Assembly (NCBI GenBank): GCA_027603065.1
Contig: JADGJP010000019.1
Location: 397,073 to 461,072 of the forward strand
Reading direction: 5' to 3'
DNA: 64,000 nt
DNA from: Geranomyces variabilis
Lineage: Eukaryota > Chytridiomycota > Chytridiomycetes > Spizellomycetales > Powellomycetaceae
Shown: one piece after another, positions 25,297 through 54,300 of the stretch
How the letters are laid out: each line of letters begins with the position of its first letter
Numbering within the stretch: the stretch's first letter is position 1
The notes under the pieces: model-generated
Database searches by the model: none
What the model saw: the letters and a program-made list of their open reading frames with translations, nothing else
Told to the model about the DNA's origin: nothing
Made by a program: the position numbers and the translations under genes

Positions 25297-26824
25297 TCAA
25301 AACCACTCGTCTGCGAAAATAGCAGCGTAAGGAACGCCATTATCTTTGATGAAGCCGCGATACATGCCTGAGGTGTTGAATGGCAGTGCCACTGAGAGAG
25401 TGAGAGAGCGAGCAGAAAGAAATGGAAAGGAGGTTTCATCAGAGTTCAGAAGCGTTACGAAGATCTCTCAGCTCCCATATGGAAGCACAAGTTCATTTGA
25501 TATCATGATTTGGCCGCACGTACCTCGGCCATCAGGACCCACAGCAACGAGTCCACCAGCGCCACCGGCATTCTTCAAAGTCTCGTGCACCGTAGCATTC
25601 GAAGCCTCCACGAGCGATTGCCCGCCGTACTTGATCCTTGCTACAACATCGTGCGCCACTGCGTGCCGAATAAAGTACTCCCCGTCGCCTGTGCCAGAGA
25701 CAGCGGCATACTTATTCTCGGCGTAGTTGCCGCAGCCAATGAGGGGGGTGTCTCTACGTTTCAAAAGAAAGGAGAAACATGTATTAGCCAAGAAGCCACA
25801 TTTGGAAATGGGAGCCAGGCATTTACGAAGGGCCTTACCCGATCCTGTACGTCCACTTATTGTTCTTGCCACCGGTCGACGTTGCCGCGGCCAAATCACC
25901 GTTCTGATCAACCGCGCAAGCGCCAACAGTGCCCTGGGGGTACGGATCAGGGTACTTGGCATCCGCTTTCTCCTGGTATGCCGGCGGCTCGATGTGTAAG
26001 TTGGCTGCAGCCTTTCCAGCGCCTCCAACGTGTTGTCTCCATCGATGCTCGGTGAAAAAGTACTTTTCATCCACAATGTCCAATCCGTTTTCGGCAGCAA
26101 ACTGCTCAGCCTCGGTTGATGCAATGAACACATGTGGTGCCTTCTCCTTGAGGACGCGGGCAAGGCTGATTGGGTTCTTGACCTTGGTCAACAATGTCGC
26201 AGCACCTGCTTGGGCAGTCCGGCCGTCCATGATGGAGGCCTCGCAGACGTTCTTTCCGTCACGACTGAAGACGGCTCCCTTTCCAGCGTTGAAGAGCGGA
26301 CAGTCTGCGAAACGGCAGGGAGACCGCACAACATCAATGGTCGTTATGGAATACACCCCTCACTCTGTTGACAAGGAAGCAGACCCTGCGTACCTTCCAT
26401 AGCACGAACGGCAGCTTCCACAGCGTCCATGCTGCTGCCACCCTCCGTGAGAACGTCATAACCGGCGGCCAGAGCCTCCTTCAGGGCCGCTGCGTATTTC
26501 TCTCGCGTTTGCGGGGGCATGGCCTCCGGGTCGATAACTCCGGCTCCGCCATGAATGACCAGCGCGAACTTGGCCGTTGACGCCTAGTTTTAGGTAGTAG
26601 TAAAGAGCGAGAGAGTCAGCATACTCCGAACGGTGGCCGCTATGAGCAAGACCTGTAACTCTGGTACTTACCTGTGCGGCCTGAATGACAGGGTCCTCCT
26701 GGGGGATGCCGACATGCTCAGCTGCGAGTTTGCTGGAGGCTGCGGGTAGGCAGGAGTAAAGCAATGACGAGATCATCTGCGGCGATGGTTCCTCTCCATT
26801 TGACGCGCTGCGCTTAGCGTACAT
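25297..26824 (-). CDS. Isoaspartyl peptidase / L-asparaginase (N-terminal-nucleophile family)
   Basis: Five exons (26672-26824, 26394-26583, 25839-26304, 25524-25753, 25297-25391) close in frame to 377 residues. The family hydrolyses L-asparagine and isoaspartyl dipeptides after autocleavage before a threonine. Visible motifs: KFALVIHGGAG near residue 55; MDAVEAAVRAME near 105; FNAGKGAVF near 120; the cleavage and catalytic site YPQGTVGACAV with Thr as the new N-terminus; STGGKNNKW; GCGNYAENKYAAVS; HGEYF-like GDGEYFIRHAVAHD; and the closing PFNTSGMYRG. The length is usual for the family apart from about 50 extra N-terminal residues in exon 1. Start codons of this gene and its divergent neighbour are only 84 bp apart, so they probably share a promoter. 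No secretion signal is evident; the protein is likely cytosolic. Confidence 0.93.
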
Positions 26825-33148: not shown

Positions 33149-36100
33149 TTAGTGCATTTTCTGCCGTGAAGCAGCTACGACATTTGTTACTCGGACCTGC
33201 TGCGACTTGGCTTTGCTGAGCTTCGGAGTGATCCACTGCAAATATTTCTTCCACCAACGACGACCCTTTGTGCCGTCTTGTGGTTGCTTTTCGTCACGAC
33301 TCGTCGTTCCCTTGGTGGATGTTTTTACTTCGATTGTAAGGGGCAATGGCGGGGCAGGGATGATATCCGTATGAGAGTCCGGTCGTTTCTCGTTGGTGGT
33401 TCCAGTCGTCGCCTTGATGGCTCTAACGAGTGCTTCACAGAAAGCCCGGCCCGATGGCAGGACGTGACCACCCTCGTGCTCCAAGATCGTCCGAGCAGCT
33501 ACCGTATACTGGTCGGGGAGGTTCGATTTGATCAATGGAATCTCCTGCTTGCCGTACGCAATGATGGTGGGCGAAGCGATGGGGCCCGCGATCGCCAACG
33601 CGTCGCGGATCTTTGACGGCAACCCGGCAGACGGATAGGAGACACCGCCGATGTGAACGGTGAACTTCCAGGTCCGTTCGATAACATTCAGATGCGCCAG
33701 GCGGTCCAACAGCTCGATCGGCCAGCAGCCCTGAGAGAAGCCGAGAAGGCCATCGACGGGACCCACTTCATGAAGCTTCTGAGACAGGAAGGCAATGAGA
33801 CTCTCGTACTCCGCAGCGGGCACAGCCCAGTCCGTCCATGCTTGCGTGAATTTGTCCGCATCGGTCGTGGCGGCATCGATCGAGGTCCATTGGTAAACGG
33901 TAACGTTCTCGTAATCTAAGGTATGCATAGAATAAACCTACTGAATTCCCACGCAGGTGAACACGGCTCAAATCTCAGGCACATACCTTTGTTCAAAGGC
34001 TTGACTTTGAAAGGGGCATCGCAGAACAAGAACTCGATATCTTGTCCAGATGCCTCGATAAGGTTTGCCATCGCGTTCTCCATCATGACCGAGTTGGCAA
34101 ACAAGGCATGGAAGCAGAGAATTTTTATCTTTGGCGCCTTCCCCTCAGTTGCCGGGGCGAGATCGGACGGGCTTTCAATCCCCTCAATGGCCTGCGCCAT
34201 CATTTTCAGGGTAGGGTTTTTGAACATAGAGTTGATCTTAAGGTCAACGTTCCACCGCTGCTTGATGTGGAAATGGAGCGACACAGCGCTCAGGGACGAG
34301 CCTCCAACGCTGAAGTAGGACGTTTCACGTCCGATGTAGGACAGATCCTTTTTCAAAGATTGACCCCACACCGCAGCTAGTGCAATTTCGAGCTCCGTTT
34401 TAACGCCGACGTTCGGTCTGTCGAGGTCGATTGTAGAAAGAGCTTTTTTGTCGATCTGGGAGGTGGAAGAGAGATATTAGAATAATCCAACTTAATGGGA
34501 ACTCATGTGTGTCTTACCTTTCCGTTTCCGTTGACGGGAAGGGTCTCAAGGCCGTGAAAGACTGACGGAATCATATAGTTGGGCAGAACGTCGGCGACGA
34601 TGCGGCGAAGCTCCGTGACATCAACGGTGCTCGGAGAGAAGAAGGCCACAAGGTTGCCGTTCTTGACGATTGCCGCAGCAGAACTGACAGCCGCGTGTTT
34701 CATCATGGCGTCAGTAATTTCCTGTTGTTCGATGCGGTAGCCGGCCACTTTCCACTGATCGTCCAGGCGTGCCAGCAGTTCAAACGCGCCAGTGGTGAGC
34801 ATTCTGCCGAGGTCGCCAGTCTTGAACAGGCGACCGGGACCGAACGGGTTGGGAGCAAACCGCTTGGCCGAAAGTTCTGGGAGGTTGAGATAACCCGGGG
34901 AGGCGTTGACTCCGGGCGATGACGTGTACAGTTCGCCCAAAACGCCGATCGGGACGATGCGACGGTTAGCGTCTAGGACGTAGCACGCGTTGTTGGCTAC
35001 CGGAGTCCCTACGGTCACCAGTTGTCCGGGCTTCAACACCCCCATGTGCGAAACGATACTGGTCTCGGTAGGGCCCATCACGTTGTGCATCTTCACCGAG
35101 CTCGCCCATTGGTCTCTGAGGCGGGCGGGGCAAGGCTCACCGCCGACAATGACGTGCCGCAGGTTCGGGAAGTCATCCGGTCCGCCGAGCAGCGACAGGC
35201 CGGTAGGAGTGATGTGCAGCACCTCCACGGTCCTGATGTTGTCAAACACGTTTTCTTCCTCTCGCAGGACCAAGATACACCCGTTGCTGAGGGCTCCCCA
35301 GACCTCCCATTCGGCAACATCGAATCCAATGTTCATCATCTGCATCACGCGAGCTCGTGGGACACATCCGATGGTGGTGGATTGCAAGGCGATGATGTTG
35401 ACAGCTCCTTGGTGGGGCACCGGGACGGCTTTCGGGGTGCCCGTGGAACCGGAGGTGAAGACTAGGAACGCCGTGTCGGAGGCCTTTGCAGCACTGACCG
35501 GTGAGGCAGCCGCCGGCCGTCGTGCGAGCTCGTCGAGGTCAACAAATGCATGCTGGATGGGCTTGCTCGTGAGGGAAGACAACAGAGCCGAGAGATGTCG
35601 GGTGGTCAGAACCGCGGATGGCTCGGCGTCACTTAAAACAAAATTCAAGCGGTCAACAGGAGTCGAGGCGTCGAGAGGGACGGCAACAGCACCGCTCATG
35701 GCCACGGCCACCAGAGCAACAACGAACTCCGCGGAGCGATCCATCATGATGGCAACGCGCGAGCCGCAAACCAGTCCCATCGTGGACTGCATATGCTGTG
35801 CCAGCGTTGAAGCGAGAGTGTAGAGTTGGCGGTACGAGATCCGGTTGCTTCCGAACTCCACGGCGGTCCAATCGGGGTGCATACGGTAGCGCTCTAAAAA
35901 TCCCTCGTGGATGAGCGCATACGGCAGCTCGATATGGGGGCCGACGGCAACCGACGATCGGGTAGGGGCAGACTCCCACAGCGAGGACAAGTACTTGTCT
36001 TCGGTCACTGCCACAATCATTTGGCTGACTGTAAAGTCGAATTCCTCCAGCAAGGTTTTCGCCTGAGCTCGGTCCATATGGGCATGGTCAAATTGCCCAG

Positions 36101-39100
36101 CAAGGTGGAGACCGTGGGTGTTTGGGAAGAGCATGATTTCGAAAGAGTACGCGAGCGAGCGGTTGCTGGCCTTTCCCCGATGTTCCAGGGGTGTGAGACC
36201 AGCGCCAGAGCGTCGCTCCTCGGGCGCAGCGCTCGCAGGGCTTTCGTACGTGAATAACGAATTGAAGAGTTTCTGATCTCCTTTCAGATCCATCCAGCGC
36301 TGCACGTCCCCGAGGCTGACGTTCGTGTGCCGCAGGACCTCCGCGTGGTCCTGTTGCGCACGTGCAAGGATTACTCGAATTGCCTCCGAGTCTTGCAGAT
36401 GGACTCGGCAGGCCACCGTATTAAGAAGCGGCCCAGTAATTCTACAAAAGTGGAATAAAGTATCAGTACACGTCCATTTGGCAAAAATCCTGTTAGGGGA
36501 AATATGATAAGCTTGCCTCTCTGCGTCAGGGAGTCTGGCGTCATGACGGTTGGCGAGGACCTCGCCAAACACGATGTCGCTGGATCTTGAGTACTTGCGG
36601 AGAGCTAGTGCCCACGCGACTTTGAGGAATGTGGACTGCGTGACGCCGCAATCTCTACTGGCTTGCTGCAGTTGGATCAGCGGAACCGAGCAGTCCATAG
36701 ATAGCCACGCGTGCGGGTCGGAGCGTCCAGGGGCCGTTCCTCGGCCAAGGGCGAGAGGTTCGGCAGCCCTGATGTTGTTGAGGTACTTGCGCCAGAATCG
36801 TTCTGTTTCGGAGGTTTGAAGCGCTTCCCTGAAATCAATGAATGTCCTGAAGGACGGACGAGCAGCTAGTGTGTGACCGGCATACGCTGCCGCAACGTCC
36901 TGGACGAGGTTTCCAATGGAACTCCCGTCGTACAGGGCATGGTGGAGAGTAAGGACGGCGTGGCGATCGCCAACCTTCGTCATGCGAATCCAGTTGGGGT
37001 CAGCGACAGTGAATCCGCGTTTATGGTCCTCGTCCAGGAAGATACGCAGGTCCGTAGTCTTGGAAGCATTGCAAATGTTGGAAGCCGCGAGGGGAACAAA
37101 GTGTTGGTAGATTTCGCCCGATCGCGATATCACAAAAGACGAACGCAGTATATCATGTGTCTCAGCGGCAGCCAGGACGGCTGCGCGCAGTTTGTCCATG
37201 CGGATGGTTTCAACGGACTCAAAAACAGCCTGATGCAGATAAGCCGATCGATCTCTGATAGAGGCAATGACCATCGCAGCCTGCAATGGGGAAGTCGGAA
37301 AGATAGTGTCCCGCAACTCCTCCTTTCCGACGCCGAACAAGGGGCGAACGTCGCTGCTCATCAGGGCATCTAGCGCTTGATCGCTGAGCTGGAAACGAGA
37401 TACAATCCGCGTGCTCGACCCGACTCCGGCTTTGGAATCCAAAACTTGGGCGGCGCCTCGAAGAGTTGGGAAGGCAAAGAGGTCCGGCACGGAGATCTCC
37501 AAGCCGGCTTGGCGGCAGGCGGTTGACATGCGGATCACGGAGAGACTGTCTCCTCCGAGCGCAAAGAACGATGAGTTGCGGCTGATTGCGTTGACAGAGA
37601 TTTTCAACACCGTCGCCCAGATGTGGGCAAGGCGTTGTTCGGTGGCGCCTTCGGGCTCGTGATGGGTGAAGCTGACTTCCAGATTGGCAAGCCGTTTCTT
37701 GTCAACCTTGCCGTTGGCATTGAGGGGCATCGCAGCGAGGCCCACGAGCGCTGCTGGAATCATGTACGAGGGGAGGATTGCCGCCATGCATGCGCGGATC
37801 TCTTGCTCGTCGATGTCGGCGGGACTGAAATATCCCACGATGTCGCCGTCCTTGACAATAGCCGCAGAAGACTTGACGGAGGGGTGCTGCGCCAGTGCGG
37901 CCGCGATTTCGTTGGCCTCAACTCTGTAGCCTTTGACTTTGTACTGGTCGTCTTTTCGTCCGATCAGCTGGAAGGCGCCGGAGCCGTCGGATAGCACGCG
38001 GCCCAAGTCGCCGGTTTGGAAAAGCCGCCCATGGGCGAACGGATTTGTGATGAACCTTTCGGCGGTCATATCGGGCAGATTAATGTAACCCGCCGAAGCG
38101 GCAACACCAGGAGTTGAGGTGTAAAGCTCTCCAACCACGCCGATTGGAACGATGCGCTGCTGCTTGTCCAGCACGTAGCACGAGTTATTGGCAACCGGGC
38201 GCCCGACAGTGACCGGGCGGTGCGGATGCAGCGTGCCGGCATGCGAGATGATGGAGACCTCGCTAGGTCCCATGACGTTCCACATAGTGAGTCCCTCGGT
38301 CGACGCCCACTGGTCCTTGAGACGAGCCGGACAAGCCTCGCCTCCGACAACGAGGTGCTTGAGATTGCTGTAGTGCTTGGGTCCCTCGAGCTGAGCCAGT
38401 CCGGTGGGTGTGATGTGCAACACGTCGACGGTCTTGAGATTTTCGAACAGCTTCTCGCCCTCTTCTCGCAGCACAAGGGTACATCCATTGTTTAAGCTGC
38501 CAAACACTTCCCAGAGGCAGACGTCGAAGCCCTGGTTCATAAACTGCATGACGCGAGCACGCGGGACGCAGCCGATCGACGCAGATTGGAGCGAGATGAT
38601 GTTCACGGCTCCCTGGTGAGGAATCGGCACGCCCTTAGGGGTGCCCGTTGAGCCGGAGGTGTAGATACAAGCGAATTCGTCAGCGGACGTGGCCGAAGCG
38701 TCAAGGGCTGGTGCTTCAGCGCGCTGGGACGAGCTTGCGAGCAACCCAGCCACATCCGCCCACACCCACTGCTGGGTGGTGTCGATGACTGGAGCGTCGG
38801 CTTTCCTCGACACAATTGCGGAAGCACCCGCGTTGCTGAGGATGTGCTCGATACGTCGAGGGCTAAACTTGCAGTCGATGGGGATAATGGTCGCGCCTGC
38901 GAGGAGAGGATTCAAAAGTGAGCGAACGGGCCATCGAAAGCAAGTGATAATCCTCACGAAATCTGGACTCACCTGTTCTCAAAACCGCAAGTAGTGACAG
39001 TGGGAACTCTAAGCAGCGGCGCATGATCACAGCAACACGAGATCCCCGCGCAATGTCCAAAACACGGAGACGATTTGCAAGAACACTGGCAGCAGCGTCG

Positions 39101-42100
39101 AGCTGTCCATATGACAGGGCTTTGGCGCCAAATTCAACCGCCTGCCACTCGGGATGCTCGCGAATCCACGGCTCGATACCCTGGTGAACCAGCTCGTACG
39201 GAAGCGGGATGCTGGGACCGGAGACCAGGGAGTCGTGCGCTGTACGGTGTTGCCAAAGGTCCGCGAGCAGTCTGCGTTCTCCGATAGATTTGATGACGTC
39301 GGCAATGGTCTGCTGTAGCTCCTCGAGGATCTGGACCGCCTGGGTACGTGCGAGGATCTTGTGGTCGAATTGAACGGCGATCTTCAAGGCAGAAGAGGAG
39401 GGGAACACGATGAGCTCACAGGCGTAGGCCACGGCGGCGCTCGACTCTCGGACTGAGTTGGTCAAAGGCACCAGCCCGTTCGTGGTGGGGGTCGCGCTGA
39501 AGTCAAAAATGCCATCGTCGGGCAGGTTCTCGTAAGTGAACAGGGACTGCATCAGCTTGGCCTCGGCCGGAATGCTGCTCCATTCCTGGATGTTGACGAG
39601 GCCGGCGTGTGCGTGAGGTAGCACGGCGCTGTAGCTACTTTGCACGGACTGGAGCAGGTCGACGATGCTGATGTCGTCGCGGCAGTTGATCCGGCAAGGA
39701 ACAGTGTTGAGTAACGGGCCAATGATTCTAAAATGGTATTGTCAGACCACGCGCGGATAGGTATAGTGAAGAAATCAATAAGCCTACCTTGCCGCGTCCG
39801 CCAGGTCAATGTCGCGATTGGCAACAACCTCAGCAAATACAATGTCGCCAGTGCGCTGGTACTTTCGCAGGGTGAGTGCCCACGCGACCTTGATAAGCGT
39901 GGCGAGGGTAACTCCCGCAGCCTTGGCTGCGTCCTTCAAATTTTCAATACCCTCGCAACATTCTTCTTCGAGCCAGATGTCTTCCGTCGCAGTCCTGTCG
40001 GCGGGTCCGAGGGCGAGGGGCGTAGCGGGGACGACGCCTGCAAGGTATTCCTTCCAGAAAGTTTCAGTGGCATGGCCGTCCTGAGCCTGGATGTAGTCGA
40101 TGAAACTTTTGAAAGTGGGTCGGGGTTCCATTTTCAGGGAGTTGTAGGCAGCAGTAAAGTCCGACGCGATGGTGGGGAGAGACCACCCGTCGTAGAGTGC
40201 GTGGTGAATCGTCAGGCACACATGCTGATTGTTGACAAGCGTCACACGGATCCAGCTACGTTCCCCGAGATGGAAACCGCGTGCCCGGTCTTGTTGCAAG
40301 AAAGATTCAAAGGCCGTGTCGCTAGCGGTTTCGAAAATGAGGTCGTCCGGCTCTGGGCTGACGATTTGGTAAACGCCGGCAAGAGGTGAAATGGCGAATG
40401 AGGTTCGGAGGATTGGGTGAGTGGCCACCAAGTCAATGACAGCCTGGCGCAGGCGGTACACTTCAACCGAGGCACACGCCCAGGTTATTTGGTTTAAATA
40501 TGAGGTAGGGTTTTGAACCGTGGAGGACACCATGGCAGCTTGCATTGGGGAAGCGGGATAAACGTTTTCGACGGTGACGAGGTTTTCGGGGAGTACGCTG
40601 AAATCGAGGTTCATTTTGATGTCGTCCAGTAGCTCGTCGCTAGCAAAAGGTGCCAAGAAAATGTCAAATCACACGCCATTTATCCACCGCGGACGCTCCA
40701 CGTGAACATACCTGACAGTATGAGAGGGCCACACGGTGGCCGGGGCGAAGGTCTTGGTGCCGTTGGCGTCCACAATCCTCGCCGCGGCGCCAAGGACCTG
40801 AGCTGCGAACATTTCAGCGACCGAGATCTGGAGCCCGGCGCGCTTGAGCGCCGTGACGGTCTTGATGATGCTCAACGAGTCACCCCCGAGCGCAAAGAAC
40901 GATGTGTTGCGGCCAATGTCCTCAATCGGAACGCGGAGGACCTGGGCCCAGACCTGAGCCAGTTTTCGCTCGATGTCAGTCTCGAGCTCGTCGACGGCAA
41001 TTTTGTATTCCATGGCTTCGAGAACCTTCTTGTCCGTCTATATCAGAATTAAGATAACACATGAGTCAAGAAGCTCTTCAAAGCTGTGCTGGCCCAAAGT
41101 ACCTTTCCGTTCTGATTGGTTGGCATGACGTCGAGTCCGATGTAAACGGCAGGGCGCATGAATGAGGGCAAGAAATTTGAGACGACATCACTCAACTGCG
41201 AGACGTTCACATCTTTGGGGGTGAAGTAACCGACAAGGTGAATTCCATCCTTGACAACTGCGGCAGCCGTGGTGACGCCGGGATGTGCCATCATAGCGTG
41301 AGCGACTTCGTCTAATTCGATGCGGTAGCCGCGCAGCTTTACTTGTGCGTCGCGGCGGCCAATGATCTGCACGTTGCCCTCTGCAGTAAAGCGGGCGAAG
41401 TCTCCGGTGGCATACATGCGGGCTGTGCCGTCCCCGCCCACGAACGGGTCAGGGATGAACTTTTCGGCGGTGGCTTCGGGGAGGTTGATGTAGCCGCGCG
41501 CGAGGCCAATACCGCCGAGGTACATTTCGCCAACGACGCCAACGGGGACGGGACGGAGAGCCGCGTCGAGAATATAACTGCTTGTATTTTGTAAAGGTCG
41601 GCCGACGTGAATCTCGTCGTCAGGGCCGAGGACGCCAAAGTGAGAGCAGATGCTGGCTTCGGTGGGCCCGTATCCGAAACAGAAGCGGACGTACGGAGCC
41701 CAGAGATCTTTGATCGCTTTGGGGAGAGACTCGGCTCCGCAACCAAGGACTTTGATGTTGGGGTAGCTAGACGGGTGGCCCATCTGAGTCAGGCCTGTTG
41801 AGGTGATGCTGAGAGTGTCGATCTTGGCGAAAGTGGCATAGGCATCGTCCTCGCGCAAAATAAGACAACAACCGTTGCTCAAGCCAGACCAGATCTCGAT
41901 CTGCGCCACGTCGAAGCCGAGAGCAGCGAATTGGCAGGTGCGCGTATGCTCGCGAGCGCCGAACGTCGCGGCGGTAGCATTGATGCAGTTGACGACACCG
42001 AGGTGCGGCACAGGCACGGCCTTTGGTTTCCCCGTGCTCCCGCTCGTCCACACAATCATAAAATCCTCGATCTTGTAAGACGGCAGAGACATAGGCACAG

Positions 42101-45100
42101 AGGCAGGCAGCTCGGCAGACGCGTTGACGACTATGACGTGGACTTGGGACATCTTGAGACCGTGAATCATTGCGAGCTCCGACTCAGTAGTGAGGATGCA
42201 AGCAACATCGCCGTCCGCGAGGATGAACGAGATGCGATCGGCCGGCATCTGGGAATCGATGGGAACGAGTGTGCACGAGGCAAACATGACGGAAGCAACG
42301 GCTAACGGGTACTCGAGCCGCCGCTGCATGACGACCGCAATGCGGGAGCCATGTTGGATTCCTTTACTCTGGATCGTTCGCGCAATTTCTGTAGCACGAG
42401 TGCTGAGTTCTCCATACGTGAGTCCTTTGTCCATGTGCTCGATAGCGGGCCAGTCGGGGTGGCGCTTGGCGCGTTCCTGAAACTCTTCATGGACCATGGA
42501 GAATCGGAGCGGGACCTTTGGTCCAAAGCTGAACTCGTTGAAAAGCGCAACCTGGCGGTCGCTAAGCTTGTCAAGGTCTTCGACAGTTTGGTCCAGGTTG
42601 ACGCACATCTGGCTCAGCACGTGAACAAAATGGTCGGCCATCTGCTGGACACACTCTCGGTCGAGAGACCGCTCGTACGAAACCCAAATGTGCATAATAT
42701 CGTCGGTCAGGCCAATGGAGAGAGCCACAGAGGCCGCGGCGTACTCTTCGGTGAAGGCGAGCTCGAATGTGAAGGGAGCCTTTTCGGGCTTTTCGGGAGG
42801 GGGCGTGTTCTGGAACACCACCAAGGTGTCAAACAGCTCGACTGATAAGGGAGCTCCTGCCCACCGCTGCACGTCCAGGGCGCTGTCGTGAGAGAACGAA
42901 CTGACGTCGGCGGAGAATCTCTGCATTTCCAGAAGCGCCTGCTTCAAAGACTTATCGGCGGAGAGGTGGGCGGATACCGCAATTGTGTTGATGAACACGC
43001 CGATGATCCTGCGAGATTAAAATGTATGGTTAGAATGCGTAGTGGAACGGACCTCCGAACAGAGCGAGCATACTTGTCGATCTGGTCCAAGCCCCCGTCT
43101 CTTCCCGAGACGACGGATCCAAAGACGACATCGTCATTGCGCGTGTAATGCTTCAACGTCAGGGCCCATGCGGTGCGGACGGCGGTGCTCATGGTGAAAC
43201 CGTGCTTTCTGAGCGCTTGTTGAAGGGACGGGAGGCCCAGGGAGCGCTCAAAGGCGGCGTACCGCGGAGCATCGGGGGCAGCTGCGGGTGCTTTCGGGAG
43301 GGTGAGCTTGCTGGTGGACAGGACGTTCTTCAGCGCTTCCTTCCAAAAGCGCTCGCTGGCGGTGGGATCTGCGGCGAGGAGCCACCGGACGTGGTCTTTG
43401 AAGGTGCTCTGCGGGGGATGGAGCTCCAAGTCAGCGCAGGCGCGGCGAATGGCGTCGAGTGTCAATCCGAGGGACCAGCCGTCTGACAGGGCGTGCTGGT
43501 TGGTCCAGAACAATCGGATGCGTCCGTCTGCAAAAACGAAATGCGGGTCAGTGTCAAATTAAAGACGACAAAAGTGGCTGGCATGGACGGGGTATGGGCA
43601 AAGCTTACCTGACAAGCGCACGCTCTTGAATCTCTGGAACGAATTGTCCGCCATCGTGAAGCCCAGGGCGCGATCCGCTTTCAAAAACTCCTTGGTCTTG
43701 ACGAGCAGGGCGGCGGGCTCCGCGTCCCACTCACCGTCGAACTGCGTCCAGGGGGCTAGGTCCTTTTTGGGAACGACCTGCATGATGCCCTCGACTGTGG
43801 AGACAAAGCAGGTTCGCAAGATGGGATGTGTCTGAGTAACCCTCGCCCACGCATCCTTGAGAATGTCCATGGGCAGGTCCGCCCGGATATCGATCACGTT
43901 TTGCACGCAATACTGAGATCGGTCTTTCATCATGCTGGAAAGGAACGAGAGCTGGAGTGGAGTGACCGGGTAGAGATCGTCGACGTCAAGTGGGTTCAGC
44001 CCGAGGGCAACGAGCTCGCCTTCTGCCTCGAGGAGAATTTCGGAGGACGGGAGAAGCGGAAAGTCGGACAGGGTGAAGCCACCCTTGTTTTCGGGGTCAG
44101 TACAGTGGTCGCAGATGCGCCGGAGCCATTCGGCAGCGAGTTGGAACCACCGGCGAACGTCCTCGTCCGTCTTGACCCAACGCTCTCCACGCCAGACGAG
44201 ACCTAGGCATCCGTCGGACTGGTGGATGACACTGACGTAGGCCGGGTGAAGAAGGGACTCTCCTTGGTCCATGGACTCGTCCTCGTGCATGTTTAGGATC
44301 TCGAACAGGGTATCGCGGGTCTTAAACCTGCCGAGGTAGTTGAAGGCAACGCGGAGGCCTGTAGCGGCCTTGATAGCGGCGGTGCGCGGGTCGGCGTCGG
44401 AGGACAGGTACTGGATAACACCATAGGATACTCCTTTGTCTGGAACAGCCCGGAGCTTCTGCTTGATTTGCTTGATAACATCGCCGATGGGGGACGCAGT
44501 ACCGGCCTCGATATTCAATGGGTGAATTGACGTGAACCATCCAACAGTGTTGGACACATCGTGGTTGCTATCCGGAAGATCGCGTCCATGTCCTTCAATG
44601 TCAAGGGTCAGGGATGACACGTTCCCGCCGGAAATCTCGGCATTGGCAAATGCAAGGGCTGCGAGGACCAGCTCTTGGATGTTGCTGCCATAAGGGACGT
44701 TGGCGAGATCGATGGCCTCGGATGTCTGCCTGTCGATGCTGTGCTGGACGACCACATCGTTGAACCCGGAAGCTGCCACCTCGTTCTCACTAAATCACGA
44801 GAAAAAAAAAAGAAGAAGGTTGGAGGAAGTCACACGGTCAAACGATCTTCACCGAATCCCTACCTCGGTGCATCTAGCATCGCGCCGAGATACGGCCCCC
44901 AAGGCGTAGGATCAACCAACTCGGAAAACTCTTTCAGATACTCCGCCCATGTTTGGTACGAGGTGGTCTTGGCCGGCAGCTTTCCACCCTTGAGAAGGGT
45001 TTCGAGGTGATCGAGCAGAATGCGCCAGGAAACCAGGTCGACCACAAGGTGGTGAATAGTGAAAAAAACGCGCTGGGAGCCGTCAGGGAGCCTGATGAGA

Positions 45101-48100
45101 AGAAGCGCATGGATGGGCCCGTTCGAGATGTCGAGTGACCGCTGGGTGAGTTCGAGCTGGGCGGGGATGTCGGCTTCGGTGACAGAGACCTCGGTGATCG
45201 TGGCGGGGGGCAGGTCGGATGGTTGCAGGACAGTCTGCGTCCAGAAGGGACGGCCATCTTCACCTTCGGTCTCCACGAACCTCGCGCGCAGCATGTCGTG
45301 ATATTCGAGGAGTTGTGCCAGAGCGTGCTGCAGGCCGGCAGCGTCAACGGGACGGCAAGGCTTGAGAAGAAATTCTTGGTTGAAGTGATGAATATTGCGC
45401 CAGTGCTTTCCAAAGAACATGTGCTGGATCGGAGTAAGAGGCACGGGACCGGTGACGGGGCCAGAGGGAACGACGTTGGCAGCGACCATATTGGCCGTGC
45501 TTCTGATGAGAGCCATCTTTGCAAGCACGGGGGTTTTGAGGATAATTTTAGGTGTGAGAGCAAAGCCGAGGGCCTTCGACTTTCCCATGAGCAAAATTGC
45601 GGAGATGCTGTCGCCGCCGAGCGCGAGGAAGTTGGAGTTGCGTCCTATCTGTTCGAGCGGGGTGCCGAGGACCTCGGACCAGACCGTGGCGAGGACGCGC
45701 TCAGACTCGGATCGGAAGTCATCCACCTCGACCTTGATATCGAGAGCAGCGAGAGCCTTTTTGTCGATCTTGCCGTTGGTGTTGGTTGGCAGCACGGCCA
45801 TGGGAATGAAAACCGCAGGAACCATGTACCAGGGAAGAAGGCTGGCCATAACAGTACGGAGGGCACCAAGGTCCACATCGGCAGGCGTGACAAAGCCAAC
45901 CAAGTGGTTATTGTCTTTCAGGATGGTGGCGGACGTGGTAACGCCGTCGTGCTTCATCATGGCAGCTGAAATGCTGTCAAGAGACACTCGGTAGCCCTTT
46001 ACTTTTCGCTCGTCGTCGAGACGACCGAGAAGTTCCAGGGTGCCGTCCTCCCGGATCCTGCCTAAATCGCCGGTCTTGAAGAACCGCGTGCCGGAGCTCG
46101 GTTCAACAGGATCTTCCACAAAGCGTTCGGCGTTCAACTGGGGAAGATTGATGTACCCGGGGCTGATTCCGATTCCGCCTGTGTAGATCTCGCCGACGGT
46201 GCCAAGGGGAACCTGGCGGCGCTTGTTATCCAGGACGTAAGCGACGGCGTTGGGAATGATCTTGCCAAGGTTGATGTCGTCGTCGCGGGTCAGGACGCCC
46301 AAATGGGCGAGAATGCCGACTTCACTAGGTCCTCCTCCGTTCACGAATGTCGTTGCGGAGCACCACAGGTTCTTGAGCTCAAGAGGGCAGGCTTCGCCCG
46401 TGACAGTCACAAACTTTAGGTTCGGAAAGTCTTCGGGCTGGCCCATGTGGCGGAGACCCGTGGGGGTGGTGATCAGTGCACTGACCGCCTTCAGCGTCTT
46501 CAATGGGTCACACTCCCGGAGGACGAGGGTGCCACCGTTGTTGAGACAAGCCCATGTCTCCCACGCACAGGCATCGAAAGAAACAGCCATGAACTGCGCG
46601 CATCGCGCCTGCGGCACGAACCCGACGAGCTCCGAGCAGTGCGTGACAACGTTCACGATGCCTTGATGGGAGACGGGGACACCTTTAGGCTTCCCAGTCG
46701 AGCCAGAGGTATACACAATCAGTGCCGGATCGCTGGAACGTACGGGGTCGCCGCGCGGCGTCACCGCCCTGACAGCCTTTCCGCCGCTCTCCGCAAGGGA
46801 ATCCAGGACTACAGAAACGCGCGGGAGCACCGCGGGGATGGCCAGCGCGAGCTCGTCCGACATGGCGCACCCGTCAGCGTCAGCAACCACAACGGCGGAA
46901 GCTTCGGCATCGGCAAGGACGTGCAGGATGTGGGCAACGGGGAACTTTGAATCAATGGGTACAGCTGTGGCGCCGCATTTGCTGAGAGCGAGCAGTGCGA
47001 CGACGAATTCGAGAGACCTTTGGGCAAGGACAGCAACACAGTGACCGCTGCGGACGCTTGCAACCCGCTGGATAGTCAGGGCGAGCAGCGAGGACTTGAC
47101 GTCGAGGTCCCGGTACGTCAGCGCGGCGGATCCGAACTCGACGGCGCTCCAGTCCGGGTGATCGCGAGCCTGCAGCTCGAACCCATGGTGCAGGAGTTGA
47201 TAGGGGTTGCCCAGCGCGGGTCCAACGCAGAGCGAGGTTTGCAGGGTTGTGTGGTTCTTTGAGAGCTGCCACAGGTCGTCCATGATGAAGGGCGCACCGG
47301 CCAGGGTGTCCACAATTTGAGAGAGCGTGAAGCACAGCTCATCGGCCATGAAGCCGATCTGCGTGGCGGTGCTCGCGTCGGAAGCGTAGACAAACTCGGC
47401 GAACAGGGCCTCGGCAGGCCCCGTGGAAATACGGATGTGGAGGTCGGGTTCCTTTTCCAGCCGGCCCAGTAGGGCGACAGTGTCCGTCTCGGTACGATTG
47501 TTGTGGAAGGAAAGGACGACACTAGCAAATAAGTTCGGGTTGAAAGAAGAGTCAAGGTGTCCCGCGTCGAGCGCACGCTCGTATTCCTGTATGCGCTGCT
47601 CGATGTCTTGCTGTGACTTTACAAACTCTGCAAGGGAGACCGTCTTGTCGAGCCGGAATCGTCGCGGCAATAGTCTGAATGGAGATCACGGTAAATCCTA
47701 AGCAAGCCCGAAATGGTATGTTCCGAAACATACAAGACTTACACATTCGTTCCCTGTGGGACTACGACAAAGGAGATGTCGTCGACTCGGACGAATTTGC
47801 GAAGCATGCCGGCGACGGCCACCTGTACCGCAACCTCGAACATAGATCCGCCGTCCGCTTTGAGCAGGTTGCAGGCTTTGACCGGGAGCTCACACTCCAC
47901 AGTCGTATCAGGCCGAAGTGATTCAACATGCGGCTTAAGGAACGTGAACGCCGGCATGGGAACCGCTCGGGCGAACGCAGTCTCAAAGTATGATTCCGCT
48001 GCCTTGGCCATCCTGTGGGCGAACTCATCATTCTGGCCGTCTTCGAGAGCCACGGAACAATCCGCCATCTCGGCCAACGTGTGGAGTCTCAACACGTCCG

Positions 48101-50988
48101 AGATGGCGATTGCAAGGCCCACCTTTCTGGCCTCCATCGTAATTCGGATGGCGGAGATGCTGTCGCCCCCGAGTGCGATAAAGGAGGACTGGCGTCCTAT
48201 GTTAGCGGCAGGGATACCGAGGACGTTGGACCACACCGAGGCCATCAGTTGCTCGGCGATGGTGACGAGGAAATCGACGGGCATCTCCATCGGTATGGCA
48301 TTTAAGGCTTTCTTATCAATCTGGCAAGCAGAAATCCACCACATCAGCATGCGTGCTCCATTATCGAATGAGTCTGGATCATCATACCTTGTCATTAGTG
48401 TTGGTAGGCATCTCGTCTAATACCTGAAACGTCCCCGGAATTGAATACGCGGGAAGGGCAAGGCTCAATAGAGCCCGAAGGTCGGCAGCAGTGACGCTAT
48501 GTCCACGGTGAGTGGTATAAAAGGCTGCGAGGTGTGTAGCGTCTTTAGCGATGACAGCCGCGAGGTGGACACCAGGGTGTGTTCGGATCTCGGCCTCGAT
48601 AGCGTCGAGCTGGACCCGATAGCCCTTTATTTTCGTCATCTGGTTTTCGCACCGACCCAGGATCAGGAGATCGCCGTCAGGGGTGAGGCGGCCCAGGTCA
48701 CCGGTTTTGAACATGCGCGGTGACTCGACCGAGACTAATGCTGCGTCTGGGGCGCTGCACCAGTACGGGTCCGGGAAGAAGCAGGTGGCGGTCAAATCTG
48801 GCTGGCGGAGGTACCCCGGGGAGACGCCGAGCCCGCCCAGGTAGATTTCGCCGACAACGCCAGCCGGGACGGGCATCATAGCGTTGTCCAGGACGTAGCA
48901 GCTAACATTCTTCATGGGCTTGCCAAGATGAGCCACCGCGTCAGCGTCGCTCATGATCGCGGAATGAGTGATGATGGTGGTTTCTGAGGGGACACAAGTT
49001 AGCACAGAGTAATGAAAACAACCCTCTCACCACGAAGCACACAGGGGTTCACTCACCACTCGGACCGTAAGCATGGCGCAAGGTGACAACAGGCGACCAA
49101 AGCTTTTTGAGTTCCAACGAGCACCCTTCTCCCCCTGTGTAAATGTTACGCAAAAGCGGATAATCTCTCGGGTCACCGAGCTGGGCGAGGAAAGTTGGAG
49201 TGCAAATAACCGAGTCGACCTTCTTGATAGTGTCGAAAGCGTTGTCGGTGCGAAAGACCAGAGTGGCGGCATTGCAGAGCGAACCCCAGGTCTCACTTTG
49301 ACAGGAATCGAAGGCCTGGGCACTGAACTGGGCCATGCGACAATTCGGAGATATGCGGTCGCCGGTGACGACGTTGACAGCGCCGCGATGCGGAAGGGGA
49401 ACGCCTTTGGGCTCACCAGTGGAACCGCTGGTGTAGAGGATAGCGTAAGGATCCGTGTCGGCAACCGCAGCCGAGGTGGCTGCCGACATGGCTTGGAACC
49501 GAGCCCATTCTTCAGCGGAGGGGGAGCGGGGCTCTGCCAGGACGGTGCTATCGACTCGGATGAAGGTAAAGGCAGGTTCAGAATCCGATGAGAGACCTTG
49601 CTTGAGGGACGGCAGGTTCTCTGTGGCCAGCACAATGCAGCAACGGGAGTCCCGTGCCATCTTTTCGATCCGCAAGAGTGGGAACAACGGGTCGCAGGGA
49701 ACCAGAACGCCTGGAAAGATGAAAGAGTTAGCCCACCTTTCGAATAACAAAACGCTTCAGCTACTTGACACGAGAACCCCTTTACCTCCACATTTCAGGA
49801 CCGCCACCATGGCGATTCCAAACTCGAGGGACCGGGGCATGACCAATGCAACGGCATTTCCAGGCTGCACACCGGCATCGAGTATCTGCGCGGCCAACCG
49901 GTTTGCCTCTAGGTCGAGTTCCGCATACGTGACCTTCTTGTCTTCGTACTCGAGAGCCAGCCGGGTTGGATTGGTCGGGACGTGCCGCTCGAAGCCATGG
50001 TGCAGGAGACGGAATGGCAGGGGCACGCGCGGGCCATGACAGTAGCGCCGCAGGTCGGCGGTTTCATTGTCGGACAACGTCCAGAGGCCGGCAACCGCGG
50101 CGTTGTTCTCCAGGCTCGACAGGATCTGGGCGATTGTGGTTTGAAACTGGTCCATAATGCGCGTGCAGTCTGCCGCGGTAATCATGATAGGGTTGTGAAT
50201 GACTTGGAATGCGGGAGGCTCCTCTCCCAAAGGAGAGGAGAGGACGACGATAAGATCGCACTGGGTGGTGAAGCGGGTGGCACACACTGATTCGTCCGGC
50301 GAAGCACTGTGCAGGTCGAGCGCTGTTGAAAAGATCATGCCGTCGAGCTCCAGCTGGTGACGGATTTCTCTGTCGACATCTTCAGTCAGAGGTGCAGCAG
50401 CTGCTTGAAATTCGGCAGAAGAGTGCTCAGTCTCGAGCCGCTCGAGCCAGCTGCCCACGGAAGCTTTGTCATCAAACAGCACGGAGCATGGAGCAAAGAG
50501 GGAGGGGTGCCCGGAGGAAGCGGAATAACCCAGCTTGGCATTTTCGTAGGCATAGCCAAACACCACGCGGTCCTGGCGGGTAAACTTGCGCAAGGTCGCC
50601 GCCCATGCAGCCTTGAGGATCGGGATGGTCGCGCTGTCCGGCCATGCCGATGCGGTCCAGTAGAATTGGGATGTCTTGGACGGGTGTTTGTGGGGTATAA
50701 CAGAGGGCACGCTGATGGAGACCGGCTCACATTTGACAGTCCCATCGAGGTGGCGCAGCCAGAAACTCTTGTTCTTCGATTCCAACGAAGGCAACCCTGA
50801 CAAGGAATCGGAAGAGCCGGACGACGGCACTCGGACGGCTGAATCATCATCATCATAACCAGATCCGCCTTTTGGATTAAAACCAACAATAATAAAGAAC
50901 ACGGTTAGGGTTAGGGTTAGGTCCAGCTTGCGACTTGAGGTTTACCTCGTTGCGATTGCGGCTCTTCTCCGCCGTGGTAGTCGACCAT
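33149..50988 (-). CDS. Five-module non-ribosomal peptide synthetase with FSH1-type terminal hydrolase
   Basis: Sixteen exons: 50946-50988, 49786-50838, 49057-49711, 48388-48983, 47744-48320, 44864-47674, 43609-44789, 43074-43527, 41103-43008, 40712-41037, 39788-40639, 38973-39727, 36517-38896, 34518-36441, 33987-34455, 33149-33915. They close in frame to about 5,582 residues. Domain order: half-C, A1, T1, half-C, A2, T2, E, C3, A3, T3, C4, A4, T4, C5, A5, T5, FSH1 hydrolase, basic tail. All A domains have (Y/F/W)TSGSTGxPK(G/A)VP and an Asp in the FD core-4 motif, so all should bind alpha-amino acids. Enzymes of this type activate amino acids as adenylates, load them on phosphopantetheine arms and condense them; the E domain predicts one D-residue. 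The start is MVDYHGGEEPQSQR in a short first exon; the in-frame GTG further down lies in intron 1. It is head-to-head with an ABCC exporter. The product cannot be named from sequence alone. Confidence 0.92.
33340..34140 (-). other. FSH1-type serine hydrolase fused to the NRPS C-terminus
   Basis: Directly after T5 the protein reads IKILCFHALFANSVMM and FLFCDAPFKV, then the nucleophile elbow LLGFSQG, IGGVSYPS and the closing HEGGHVLPS. This is the FSH1 family of fungal serine hydrolases and stands where a thioesterase normally sits, so it probably releases the peptide by hydrolysis or cyclisation. The acid position normally GxxD reads YGKQEIPL, with Glu or Gln instead of Asp. A basic tail of about 70 residues follows (KGRRWWKKYLQW). 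Confidence 0.82.
34210..37330 (-). other. NRPS module 5: C5, A5, T5
   Basis: C5 has FPTSPLQAAM and LHHALYDGSS. A5 has LVFTSGSTGTPKAVP, FDVAEWEVWG, NVMGPTE, LFKTGDLGRM and NGNGKIDKKAL. T5 has SYFSVGGSSLSA, where GGDS has become GGSS, as often seen in carriers preceding a release domain. C5 is interrupted by an intron with a GC donor (36442-36516). Confidence 0.86.
36442..36516 (-). other. GC-AG intron in the NRPS C5 domain
   Basis: The coding sequence reads GACGCAGAGAG then GCAAGCTT, and resumes after TTTTGTAG with AATTACTGGGCC, giving DAERITGPLL. The paralogous intron in C4 sits at the same codon with a normal GTAGGC donor and gives DAARIIGPLL. Confidence 0.85.
37500..40580 (-). other. NRPS module 4: C4, A4, T4
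   Basis: C4 is complete with YPASPMQAAM and IHHALYDGWS. A4 has CIYTSGSTGTPKGVP, FDVCLWEVFG, NVMGPSE, LFQTGDLGRV and NANGKVDKKRL. T4 carries FFALGGDSLSV. It closely resembles module 5 and is probably a recent duplicate. Confidence 0.87.
40770..44000 (-). other. NRPS module 3: C3, A3, T3
   Basis: C3 starts LYPVTPLQLSFLSSM; its active-site motif reads NQHALSDGWS, so the first His of HHxxxDG is Gln while the catalytic second His is kept. A3 has IVWTSGSTGKPKAVP, FDVAQIEIW, GYGPTE and NQNGKTDKKVL. T3 carries FFALGGDSLS. The module follows the epimerase, so C3 should be of the D-accepting type. Confidence 0.85.
44090..45470 (-). other. NRPS epimerization domain
   Basis: It begins VPLTPIQHMFFG and has the epimerase-type active-site motif IHHLVVDLVSWRILL. 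Later come EGHGRD, NTVGWFTSIHP and VAFNYLGRF, all epimerization-domain signatures. It converts the residue on T2 to a mixture with the D-form, so the next C domain should select D at its donor site. Confidence 0.88.
45500..48045 (-). other. NRPS module 2: half-C, A2, T2
   Basis: Only about 40 residues separate the T1 serine from the second lobe of a C domain (ESYFETAF, AVAGMLRKFVRVDDISFVV), again with no HHxxxDG lobe. A2 is complete (IVYTSGSTGKPKGVP, FDACAWETW, FFKTGDLGRI, NTNGKIDKKAL). T2 carries FLALGGDSIS. Confidence 0.85.
48050..50838 (-). other. NRPS module 1: half-C, A1, T1
   Basis: After a 30-residue linker the protein enters the second lobe of a condensation domain (SFWLRHLDG, LKAAWAATLRKFTRQDRVVFG). 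The first lobe and HHxxxDG are absent. A1 follows (LPFRLLHHGFE, ILYTSGSTGEPKGVP, AFDSCQSETWG, AYGPSE, MFKTGDLGRL) and closes NTNDKIDKKAL, with Asp replacing Gly in NGK. T1 carries FIALGGDSIS; its Ser is the phosphopantetheine site. Confidence 0.85.
50839..50945 (-). other. NRPS intron 1 containing telomere-like repeats
   Basis: It runs from GTAAAC (after CAATCGCAACGAG) to GATTCAG and joins MVDYHGGEEPQSQR to AVRVPSSGSS in frame. It carries CCTAAC repeats about 45-65 nt from its 5' end. Without this intron the NRPS frame has no ATG before residue ~190, which supports it. Confidence 0.65.
50903..50921 (+). repeat. Interstitial telomere-type repeat (TTAGGG)
   Basis: GGTTAGGGTTAGGGTTAGG is three exact units of the canonical fungal and animal telomere repeat, lying inside the NRPS 5' region rather than at a chromosome end. 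Confidence 0.9.
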
Positions 50989-51379: not shown

Positions 51380-54300
51380 ATGTCGACGACGACGACCACC
51401 GACCAGAAGGTCAAGTCGTCTTCCTTCCACGAAGTCCGCGTCTCCACCGTCGTGCCTCCTGCCGACCACAGCAGTCACAGTCACCGCAACCCACTCTCAT
51501 TTCTCACGCTGTCATGGCTCACCCCGCTCATGAACAAGATCAGCAAGCTGCCAAAAGACGAACCGTTCGACACCCTGCAGCTTCCGCCGCTGTGGCCTGA
51601 AGACACGTCGCTCGCTCAGGAGGACCTGTTCGTCCCTTACTGGTCTCAGCTGCGCTTGCACCACGCCGCTACCCAGCCCGGCAGCTCGACCACCGCTGCT
51701 GATCCGGGACCTCCGCGCCTGCTCCATGCCCTCATCCGCGGCTTCTGGCGTTACTTTGTTGCCCTCCTCCTCTTGGGCCTGCTGTCGACCCTTCTCAACC
51801 TGGCCCTGCCGCTCATGATTCCCCAGATCTTGTACGTCTTGGATGCGGCCGACAACCCAAAGCCCAGCTTCCTTCTGACCACCAACGCGTACGCGCTGGC
51901 TGTCATCGTGTTTGCCATCCAATGTGTCTGCATCGCAATCAACACCACAAACATGTCCATCTGGAGAACCGCCGCTATGCGCCAGCGTGCCGCCCTCTTC
52001 CACGCCATCTTTGTCAAATCCCTTCGCCTCTCGGCCAAATCACAGAAGGAATTCGGACCCGGCAAGATCAACTCGCTCTTCTCCACCGACGTCGGCGATT
52101 TTCAAACCATCTACAAGGACGCAGCGGAGTGCATCATCTCGGTCATAAAGATCGTTCTCGCCCTGTTCCTCCTCACGAGCTACCTTGGCAATGTCATCTG
52201 GATCGCGCTGGCCCTGTATGCTGGCTTGTTCAGCGTGCAGTTTGCCGCCGCTCCTCTGCTCAACCAGAGCTCCAGGGGTTACTTTATGGCCGCCGACCGC
52301 CGCACAAAGGTCCTCCGCGAGTTCCTTTACGGAATTAAAAACGTCAAGTTTCAGGCGATCGAAGACTACTTTCACAAGGCAATGCTTAAGGAACGTGCCA
52401 TCCAGCAGCAAAACCAGATCAAAGGCAGCGCCGGATACTTTTGCATCTACGTTGCTTCCGGCCTGCAAAAGAAGATCCTTCCTTCCATCGCCATCATCAT
52501 CTACATCGCAATGGGACGAGACTACAACGCGTCAATGATCTTCACTACTCTGGGACTCTTTGGCAGTCTCATCGAGCCTGCCAGTAACATCAGCAATTCC
52601 ATCAGGTAGGCTCATCAAACTGCCCACCCGTCGCTCTTTCTCTCTCGCTCTATGTTGGAACGCTTTCTCATCAAGGACCTGTACCGTATAGCACCCTGCT
52701 TCGCTTCAAAGTCTCGTACGACCGATTAAGCTCTTTCTTTCTCGCCCGAGAGAGAGTGGATGCCGAACTGACGTCTCGCCACGTGCAAGAGCGCGAGTCC
52801 GGCACGGGATGTTCCATTGTACTGGAGGATGCAACCTACAGCTGGGAAAGCGAGGTTGCCGACGCCTCAGTCAAACCCGTGGCTGGCGATGCGGCTGAGA
52901 CGGGCAGCTTTGACCAGGACACCATCTTTGAGCTTCGAAACCTGACGCTCTCCGTGGCAAAAGGCAAGCTTGTGGCTGTCGTCGGGTCGGTTGGAAGCGG
53001 CAAGAGCGCGCTTCTTTCAGCGCTCTCGGGTCAAATGCGAATGACCGGCGGCCAAGGCAGCGTCTACGGCACCCTTGCTTACTGCCCGCAAGAGCCCTGG
53101 ATTGTCTCCGGAACGATCGAGGAAAACATTTTGCTGAACAGCGACACGATCACTCGCGACGTTGTGGACCGCGCCGTCACCGCGGCATGCCTGGACGCCG
53201 ACGTAGCCAAAATGTCCAGCCACCTCGGCACACAAATCGGCGAGCGGGGTGTCTCGCTGTCCGGAGGTCAGAGAGCGCGAGTTGCATTGGGTAGGTTGAG
53301 GGGTCCTTGGCGTTGTATAGCTTTAACTGTTCACTTGTTGACCTTGTTGCTCGATTCCAGCCCGTGCTATCGCTCGAGACGCCGACGTTTATCTTCTCGA
53401 CGATCCCATGGCGTCTCTCGACGCCCACGTTGGAAAGAAAGTTTTTGAGCGCGCCATCTGCGGCGCGCTCCGCAGCAAGACTGTCCTTCTCGTCACCCAC
53501 CAACTGCACCTCCTTTCCAAGGCCGACGTCATTGTCGTCCTGGACCAAGGCCGCCTCGTTGAGAGTGGGTCCTTTGCGAACCTCATAAGCCGCGCGGATG
53601 GAAAGCTTACACACATGATGAGGGACTATAACGTCGACGCCGACGAGAAACCCAGTTCAGAGAACGCTACAGAGGGGGCCGATGGCGAGCAGGCGGATGT
53701 GTCCGCTGGCAGTGAGGAACCTGTGCAGGAAGTCGAGGCGAAGAAAACAGAAGAGAAGCAAAAGGAGGTCGCTGAAGAGCGTGCGCAGGTGAGCCATACA
53801 GATCAGACCGGCTTTAAGGCCGGCCAAAGTTTTCTCACGGCCAAGCTCTCCTTTTGTCTCGCAAAACAGGGCGGCATGACGCTCGCCACTTTCAAGTCCT
53901 ATTTCGATGCCGGCTCTCATATGTTCTTACCGGCGATGATACTCTTGCAATTTGTGGCCATCGCGGCGAGTTGCGGGCCACGTATCTTCTTGTACATTTG
54001 GATTGGCAACCAGAAAGGCACCGACCCAGACCACAATCTGAAACTCTTTGGGGGACTGAGCGCTGTCGATGGTGTCATCCTGGGTACGGATCAATGGACA
54101 TGTTGCGCAAACCGGACAGAACGGCTTACTTTCTTTATTCTCCCCTTTGCAGTCATGAGTCTGATCGTCGTCAATACTGGAGCCTACTTTTCCTCCAAAG
54201 AGTTCCACGACCGGCCCCTGGCATCTTTGATCAGGTTCCCGATGAACTTCTTTGACACTCAACCCATTGGCCGAGTGCTCAATCGGATGACGGGCGATGT

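Follow-up and report, generated by a model that had tools for sequence, protein, structure and literature searches.

A giant Geranomyces NRPS with two half-condensation domains and an FSH1 end: a candidate chytrid family built around an epimerization-condensation junction

Introduction

Chytrids and other early-diverging fungi are described as poor in nonribosomal peptide synthetases (NRPSs) or in secondary metabolites in the accessible parts of three papers (PMC2823734, PMC7466969 and PMC6784888), and Bushley and Turgeon, in the portion of their text available, regard NRPSs as scarce in chytrids (PMC2823734). The same excerpt, dating from 2010, describes BDEG_03514 of Batrachochytrium dendrobatidis, an FSH1-ended NRPS-like protein with the order T-C-T-A-T-FSH1 (PMC2823734), where A, C, T and E denote adenylation, condensation, carrier and epimerization domains, respectively.

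In this study, a window (i.e. the whole stretch of 64,000 nucleotides that was analysed) carrying a giant NRPS gene was characterized. The window represents the terminal part of contig C11 (positions 397073-461072), its end coinciding with the contig end, in a genome of 23.8 Mb and 91 contigs.

Results

A single spliced gene with a near-identical Geranomyces homologue

The interval 33149..50988 on the minus strand was predicted to contain one NRPS gene of 16 exons, with an ATG at 50988 and a stop codon at 33149, encoding a protein of 5592 aa. Splice sites were taken from a codon-model gene finder and then frame-checked; removal of the 15 introns (60-81 nt each; 14 GT-AG and one GC-AG) yielded a single open frame of 5592 codons. 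The GC-AG intron was detected because the C5 domain showed 25 extra residues relative to C4. The exons below are based on the spliced frame and a database protein (P0121).

50988-50946, 50868-49786, 49710-49057, 48983-48388, 48320-47743, 47674-44864, 44789-43609, 43527-43074, minus strand, exons 1-8
43008-41103, 41037-40712, 40639-39788, 39727-38973, 38896-36517, 36441-34518, 34455-33987, 33915-33149, minus strand, exons 9-16
36442-36516, minus strand, GC-AG intron of 75 nt, in frame, interrupting C5; its 25 aa are missing from P0121

A telomere-like repeat was observed at 50905-50916, inside intron 1, with two units in an exact scan and ~3 when partial ones are counted.

A protein search with residues 601-5592 identified HDU90_006429 of Geranomyces variabilis (P0121), a hypothetical protein of 5593 aa whose gene model is presumably likewise a prediction. 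Compared at the protein level only, the whole NRPS shares 97.98 % identity with P0121; the two differ by 112 substitutions and a single 1-aa gap, which lies within exon 2, and all exon junctions align without gaps. P0121 displays the same domain order and a nearly equal length, and the substitutions are densest in the N-terminal quarter. This match bears out the chytrid lineage that had been raised as a possibility in the sequence-only reading, Geranomyces being a member of the Spizellomycetales, Chytridiomycota (taxonomy lookup). A unicellular holozoan source, to which a Vitellogenin_N match in the window had pointed, was discarded on the strength of this protein match. The 16 exons and the two gene ends proposed in that reading likewise agree with the predicted gene model, as judged from its single spliced frame and the absence of gaps at the junctions with P0121.

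Domain organization of the NRPS

Pfam, run on five spliced pieces of the NRPS rather than on the whole protein, reported AMP-binding, PP-binding, two Condensation matches (the E domain, E 6e-43, and C3, E 1e-55) and FSH1 (66 bits, cut-off 21). The remaining domains were called from whole-genome Pfam matches and from HMMs built from the window's own domains. Along the whole protein, these HMMs produced the order X-A-T-X-A-T-E-C-A-T-C-A-T-C-A-T-FSH, in which X represents a half-C domain, so that the order previously read from motifs (half-C-A-T-half-C-A-T-E-C-A-T-C-A-T-C-A-T-FSH1) was reproduced using Pfam, the own-domain HMMs and hhalign. The predicted domains are as follows.

50006..50755, minus strand, X1, N-terminal half-C (C-lobe only, without HHxxxDG), aa 53-302 (hhalign; C-lobe HMM)
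48388..49999, minus strand, A1 adenylation, aa 305-792, core motifs present (Pfam, HMM, alignment to P0121)
48054..48263, minus strand, T1 carrier, LGGDSI (motif, Pfam, HMM)
47194..48050, minus strand, X2, internal half-C between T1 and A2, aa 883-1145, without HHxxxDG (hhalign)
45769..47187, minus strand, A2 adenylation (genome Pfam, HMM)
45502..45714, minus strand, T2 carrier, LGGDSI (motif, HMM)
44075..45444, minus strand, E epimerization, HHLVVDLVS and FNYLG (motifs, Pfam, HMM, tree)
42534..43978, minus strand, C3 post-E condensation, QHALSDG (Pfam Condensation, E 1e-55; post-E clade)
41103..42488, minus strand, A3 adenylation (genome Pfam, HMM)
40768..40983, minus strand, T3 carrier, LGGDSL (motif, HMM)
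39238..40566, minus strand, C4 condensation, HHALYDG (genome Pfam, motif, HMM, tree)
37707..39183, minus strand, A4 adenylation (HMM; A3 core motif)
37437..37649, minus strand, T4 carrier, LGGDSL (motif, HMM)
35943..37304, minus strand, C5 condensation, HHALYDG, split by the GC-AG intron (genome Pfam, motif, HMM)
34518..35903, minus strand, A5 adenylation (genome Pfam, HMM)
34186..34401, minus strand, T5 carrier, VGGSSL (motif, Pfam)
33428..34143, minus strand, FSH1 serine hydrolase, likely release domain, GFSQG and His in GGH (Pfam, 66 bits; structure 1ycd; alignment)

The repeated C, A and T modules on one chain are those of a type I NRPS, but a complete C domain is not present in each elongation module, module 2 having a C-lobe only. 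Since departures from one complete C domain per elongation module are known among NRPSs, the protein was counted as a variant of this type. The motif of C3 is QHxxxDG rather than HHxxxDG and retains the second His, which is the catalytic one in C domains. A4 and A5 were shown to be sister domains (support 94 and 96), as were C4 and C5 (support 96). The ten-residue pockets of A4 (DVWHVGVIIK) and A5 (DVWHIGVIVK) were read by script and by eye, respectively, A1 being the only other domain read by eye; we know of no code that provides a good fit to any of the A-domain codes.

The FSH1 domain matched structure chain 1ycd, which we take to be yeast FSH1, with an E value of 1e-5. It provides the C-terminus with Ser and His that characterizes the family discussed below, and alignment placed a Glu at the expected acid position in the proteins from the window, Polyrhizophydium and Quaeritorhiza. 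In the same alignment, Calcarisporiella carries GFCQG and the Ser is lost in one of two Irineochytrium proteins.

Two C domains reduced to their C-terminal lobe

Neither X1 nor X2 matched the Pfam Condensation model at E 0.01. Using hhalign, both were placed on about columns 171-426 of the 430-column C profile, corresponding to its C-terminal lobe (Prob 98.7 and E 4e-16 for X1, Prob 95.4 and E 1.7e-8 for X2); the highest Prob among 20 shuffles was 9.6. A C-lobe HMM scored X1 at 50 bits and X2 weakly (best 8 bits, E 0.13), and in a FastTree tree both half-Cs fell beside post-T C domains on long branches. When an N-lobe HMM was run over all six frames of the window, the only N-lobes it detected were those of E, C4, C5 and C3 (the last split between two exons), followed by a match of 3.8 bits; none belonging to X1 or X2 was found anywhere in the window. 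A missed N-lobe in an intron is improbable, as every intron of the gene is shorter than 85 nt and thus too short to accommodate one. As predicted from these profiles, the first two C domains of the NRPS retain just the C-terminal lobe.

This reduction bears on whether module 1 contributes to the product. A pentapeptide would be made if module 1 were used; the C2 activity would then have to come from the half-C working by a novel mechanism or from a C domain elsewhere in this or a different NRPS, or else be replaced by direct aminolysis. The core motifs of A1 and T1 are intact, and neither the A1 core nor the middle of X2 differs from P0121, as such a route would have it; however, an HHxxxDG N-lobe for C1 or C2 was not found in the window, and no stand-alone C gene was seen among the best candidates of a six-frame PF00668 search of the genome, in which 25 of 25 matches lie on contigs C1, C11 and C24, near A domains. 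We consider this pentapeptide reading doubtful, though far from negligible.

Uneven sequence change between two genomes

In the comparison with P0121, 55 of 1093 sites differ in the module 1 stretch, versus 49 of 4126 in modules 2-5 (P 4e-13). The module 1 differences are located in X1 and the A1 flanks, with none seen between about 450 and 625 in A1 or within X2 908-1043. A single site of 215 differs in FSH1, and none of 72 in each of T2, T3 and T5.

These data also bear on the notion that the gene is decaying, the two C-lobe losses marking the onset of pseudogenisation so that no peptide is made. While the two truncated C domains and the faster change of the N-terminal 300 aa would fit such a process, the 5592-codon frame is intact and modules 2-5 and FSH1 are almost unchanged between the two genomes, making decay very unlikely in our assessment. 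The unchanged A1 core and mid-X2 in the two genomes make the narrower proposal of a purely vestigial module 1 less convincing.

Chytrid relatives sharing the E-C core

The sequence-only reading had regarded the architecture as unrecognised. This holds in that no described pathway was found; conversely, the protein is not an orphan, as the E-C core recurs in other chytrids, some of which also have the FSH1 end. Among the other early-diverging fungal proteins compared, the E-C core was identified in Polyrhizophydium, Dinochytrium and Quaeritorhiza, with more or fewer modules, and the FSH1 end in two of these three records (Polyrhizophydium and Quaeritorhiza), the Dinochytrium record being partial.

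Polyrhizophydium stewartii HK105_208582 (P0122, 7544 aa; C-A-T-C-A-T-E-C-A-T-C-A-T-C-A-T-C-A-T-C-A-T-FSH) shares an E domain after module 2, a post-E C domain of the same clade and an FSH1 end with Ser, His and Glu, but differs in its seven modules and in its first two C domains, which carry HHALYDG. Dinochytrium kinnereticum HDU67_003455 (P0123; C-A-T-C-A-T-E-(C-A-T)x4-C, partial) shares C-A-T-C-A-T-E-C-A-T, and its A3 code equals the A4 code of the window; it differs in that its first two C domains are whole and at least six modules are present, its C-terminus lying outside the record. Quaeritorhiza haematococci HK102_008943 (P0124, 5789 aa; A-T-E-(C-A-T)x4-FSH) shares five A domains, the E-C core and the FSH1 end, but its E domain follows the first module, a half-C was not detected in it and only two of its five A domains belong to the 31-row A clade described below. 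Shorter relatives are JEL0842 P0013 (A-T-E-C-A-T) and Aphanomyces stellatus P0007 (A-T-E-C-A-T-C). The first two C domains are thus complete and HHxxxD-bearing in Polyrhizophydium and Dinochytrium and halved in the window NRPS; the half-Cs are treated here as a variant rather than a defining trait of a chytrid E-C/FSH1 family, which spans Spizellomycetales, Rhizophydiales, Chytridiales and Quaeritorhizaceae.

Phylogenetic comparison was performed with 29 (A), 22 (E) and 20 (C) proteins chosen from 353 listed, in addition to the window's own, after removal of A rows below 370 aa, E rows below about 300 aa and C rows below 330 aa. The window E domain falls inside a clade of chytrids, Irineochytrium and A. 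stellatus (11 of 50 rows, SH-aLRT 98). All five family rows long enough for the tree fall in a shared post-E C clade (support 99; 0.999 by FastTree with more rows); the length filter removed the JEL0842 post-E C and an A. astaci C, both of which grouped with the post-E domains in the FastTree tree. In the C tree, 11 members of a 12-row fungal clade (support 98) are post-E domains, compared with none in a separate 24-row clade (support 100), and three ascomycete post-E C rows stand apart from both.

The A-domain tree comprised 87 rows, among them those of two ascomycete proteins, and bacterial rows served as outgroup. Here, all 13 rows from Aphanomyces join 18 from chytrids in one 31-row clade (support 100), while Quaeritorhiza A1, A3 and A4 and Polyrhizophydium A5 and A7 lie outside it. 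The E-C junction thus represents the stable core, around which A domains were duplicated and exchanged. A wider A clade of 53 rows (support 99) also takes in Calcarisporiella, Irineochytrium and P0125, another NRPS of G. variabilis. Not every chytrid NRPS belongs to the family, as Chytriomyces P0135 has six A domains that cluster with ascomycete rows (support 100).

Protein searches, each considered over its best 120 rows, were consistent with this grouping. With the ORF 34506-38978, Polyrhizophydium matched at 39-43 % identity, Aphanomyces at 34-40 % and named bacteria at 26-33 %. In the E-C search, several bacterial proteins exceeded Quaeritorhiza in summed bits owing to long multi-module chains, yet at 29-31 versus 41 % identity.

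A link to Aphanomyces

NRPS fragments of Aphanomyces (P0002, P0005-P0010, P0012 and P0018) have their A domains in the 31-row clade of the window, and one E domain and seven post-T C domains in chytrid clades. They differ in being derived from an oomycete and in being fragments only, and FSH1 is not among the domains listed for them. The Aphanomyces A rows represent a single clade (support 100) inside the 31-row clade, and in the post-T C tree Aphanomyces is adjacent to a group of 16 chytrid rows, a single Dinochytrium row branching outside at a support of only 80. Approximately unbiased (AU) tests rejected a single clade of 28 fungal rows without Aphanomyces (p 5e-5, 48 rows) but did not reject a single clade of the 18 core chytrid rows (p 0.358, 41 rows), both tests being weakened in that their groups were named after the A tree was known. 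The latter result lends no support to a strictly nested position of Aphanomyces inside the core A clade.

Gene exchange between chytrid and Aphanomyces lineages is suggested by these trees as likely, with chytrid to Aphanomyces being the better guess for its direction. Contamination would be an unlikely source, because the rows from four Aphanomyces species share one diverged clade. NRPS unigenes of A. euteiches were reportedly described by Gaulin et al. According to the accessible part of that report, they are unrelated to those of Phytophthora (PMC2248709).

Other NRPS loci and neighbouring genes

Condensation (PF00668) matches in the genome number 25 including this gene, counted exon by exon. 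Contigs C24 and C1 also hold multi-module C and A domains, contradicting, for this genome, the earlier premise that large NRPSs are scarce in chytrids.

C24, 3-18.6 kb, 29-34 kb and 102-118 kb, further NRPS domains
C1, 51-60 kb, further NRPS domains

One of the C24 loci reaches within 3 kb of the contig start. Upstream of the NRPS gene, a divergent transporter gene was predicted, its start lying 391 nt from that of the NRPS.

51380..55911, plus strand, full ABC transporter, ABCC/MRP-like (gene model; Pfam; one ORF against solved structures)

Several further features were observed in the window, in which Rfam and tRNA scans gave no match.

8028-21650, plus strand, at least one very large gene, with a Vitellogenin_N match at the cut-off (24 bits), EGF domains and a fibronectin type II domain
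23365-24093, plus strand, FG-GAP repeats
25838-26359, minus strand, Asparaginase_2
56881-58566, plus strand, glutamate-cysteine ligase (GCS) pieces, beyond the ABC transporter
58917-59801, minus strand, GNAT acetyltransferase
60250-61023, minus strand, second ABC transporter ATPase piece
62539-63111, Tf2-1-like ORF of retroelement type with SH3 and chromodomain

Genes with Vitellogenin_N, EGF and fibronectin type II domains are unusual for a fungus. The G+C content drops in the last 2 kb.

Discussion

A proposed assembly line

The reading we favour, by a modest degree of confidence, is that of an undescribed chytrid NRPS family arranged around a conserved E-C junction, with FSH1 release in several members, in which the window protein acts as a tetrapeptide line starting from A2-T2-E. 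The intact frame, the domain order, the missing N-lobes, the motifs of E, C3-C5 and FSH1 and the kinship are features of the sequence itself, from which we infer the steps of synthesis. Against solved NRPSs, A2-T2-E gave its best match to linear gramicidin synthase subunit A, followed by tyrocidine synthetase 1 (residues 28-802 of the chain), and synthesis is proposed to start there with a D-residue in view of this alignment to starter proteins. The amino acid would be loaded and turned to its D-form by A2-T2-E, similar to the A-T-E starter of tyrocidine synthetase; C3 would take the D-residue, C4 and C5 would extend it, and the FSH1 domain would free or cyclise the tetrapeptide D-aa1-aa2-aa3-aa4. 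Residues 3 and 4 are probably identical or alike, given the sister relationship of A4 and A5 and the close similarity of their pockets. The annotated Quaeritorhiza protein, which has no domain before A-T-E and ends in FSH1, is consistent with an A-T-E start.

With no catalytic C lobe in module 2, module 1 (half-C-A1-T1) would be unable to pass on its residue by the normal route, and the half-Cs may persist as platforms for their A domains. The faster change of module 1 between the two genomes is in line with the tetrapeptide model. The intact A1 and T1 motifs and the unchanged A1 core and mid-X2 speak against this model, in that module 1 may be working still, as does the QHxxxDG motif of C3. 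A bolder proposal, which we hold only tentatively, is that the family passed between zoosporic fungi and Aphanomyces, most likely from chytrid to Aphanomyces, and that the catalytically empty half-Cs of Geranomyces are working parts (as a platform or in non-canonical transfer) rather than remnants. Judging from its position, the divergent ABCC/MRP-like transporter is a possible exporter of the NRPS product.

A family so distributed and linked to oomycetes would represent a peptide chemistry proper to these lineages and a clear gene target for products. Half-C modules would show what an NRPS can shed while keeping its frame. Through the link to Aphanomyces, it also becomes possible to test for gene exchange between two zoospore-forming lineages that are not related.

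Comparison with known systems

The sequence-only reading had stated that the protein fits none of the fungal NRPS classes familiar to it (siderophore, AAA reductase, cyclosporin, ETP or ACV type). The hallmarks of alpha-aminoadipate reductase (AAR), ACV and ETP synthetases are indeed absent, while the cyclosporin and siderophore types were compared by layout only. Alpha-aminoadipate reductase has the layout A-T-reductase, whereas this NRPS ends in FSH1 and scored at most 199 bits on three ORFs with the TIGR03443 model (cut-off 1030). ACV synthetase has three modules and an E-TE end, compared with five A domains, an internal E and an FSH1 end here, and the two-module GliP-type layout of ETP synthetases (A-T-C-A-T-C-T) does not match. 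Cyclosporin-type synthetases have N-methyltransferase inserts and a terminal C, whereas here FSH1 is terminal and the A-T spacing leaves no room for such an insert. Terminal T-C repeats, as in SidC-type siderophore synthetases of the SID clade, are not present, the trees containing no reference set of fungal NRPS classes and no SID sequences. Membership of one of these classes with merely an unusual order is highly improbable, given an FSH1 end instead of a TE, reductase or terminal C, and A domains that separate from all eight of those contributed by the two ascomycete proteins.

Tyrocidine synthetase 1, a bacterial and separate starter protein with an A-T-E layout, is regarded as an analogue in its working and not as a family member, although A2-T2-E aligns to it. 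A description of the family was not found in the open-access literature, including the accessible parts of PMC7466969, PMC6784888 and PMC11291939, in agreement with the earlier idea of an undescribed peptide pathway. Compared by description only, B. dendrobatidis BDEG_03514 is alike in being a chytrid protein with an FSH1 end and differs in having one A domain. Relative to the available portion of PMC2823734, the FSH1-ended chytrid NRPS-like protein was known before; what appears to be new, as defined from the sequences compared here, is the chytrid E-C/FSH1 family and its half-C variant.
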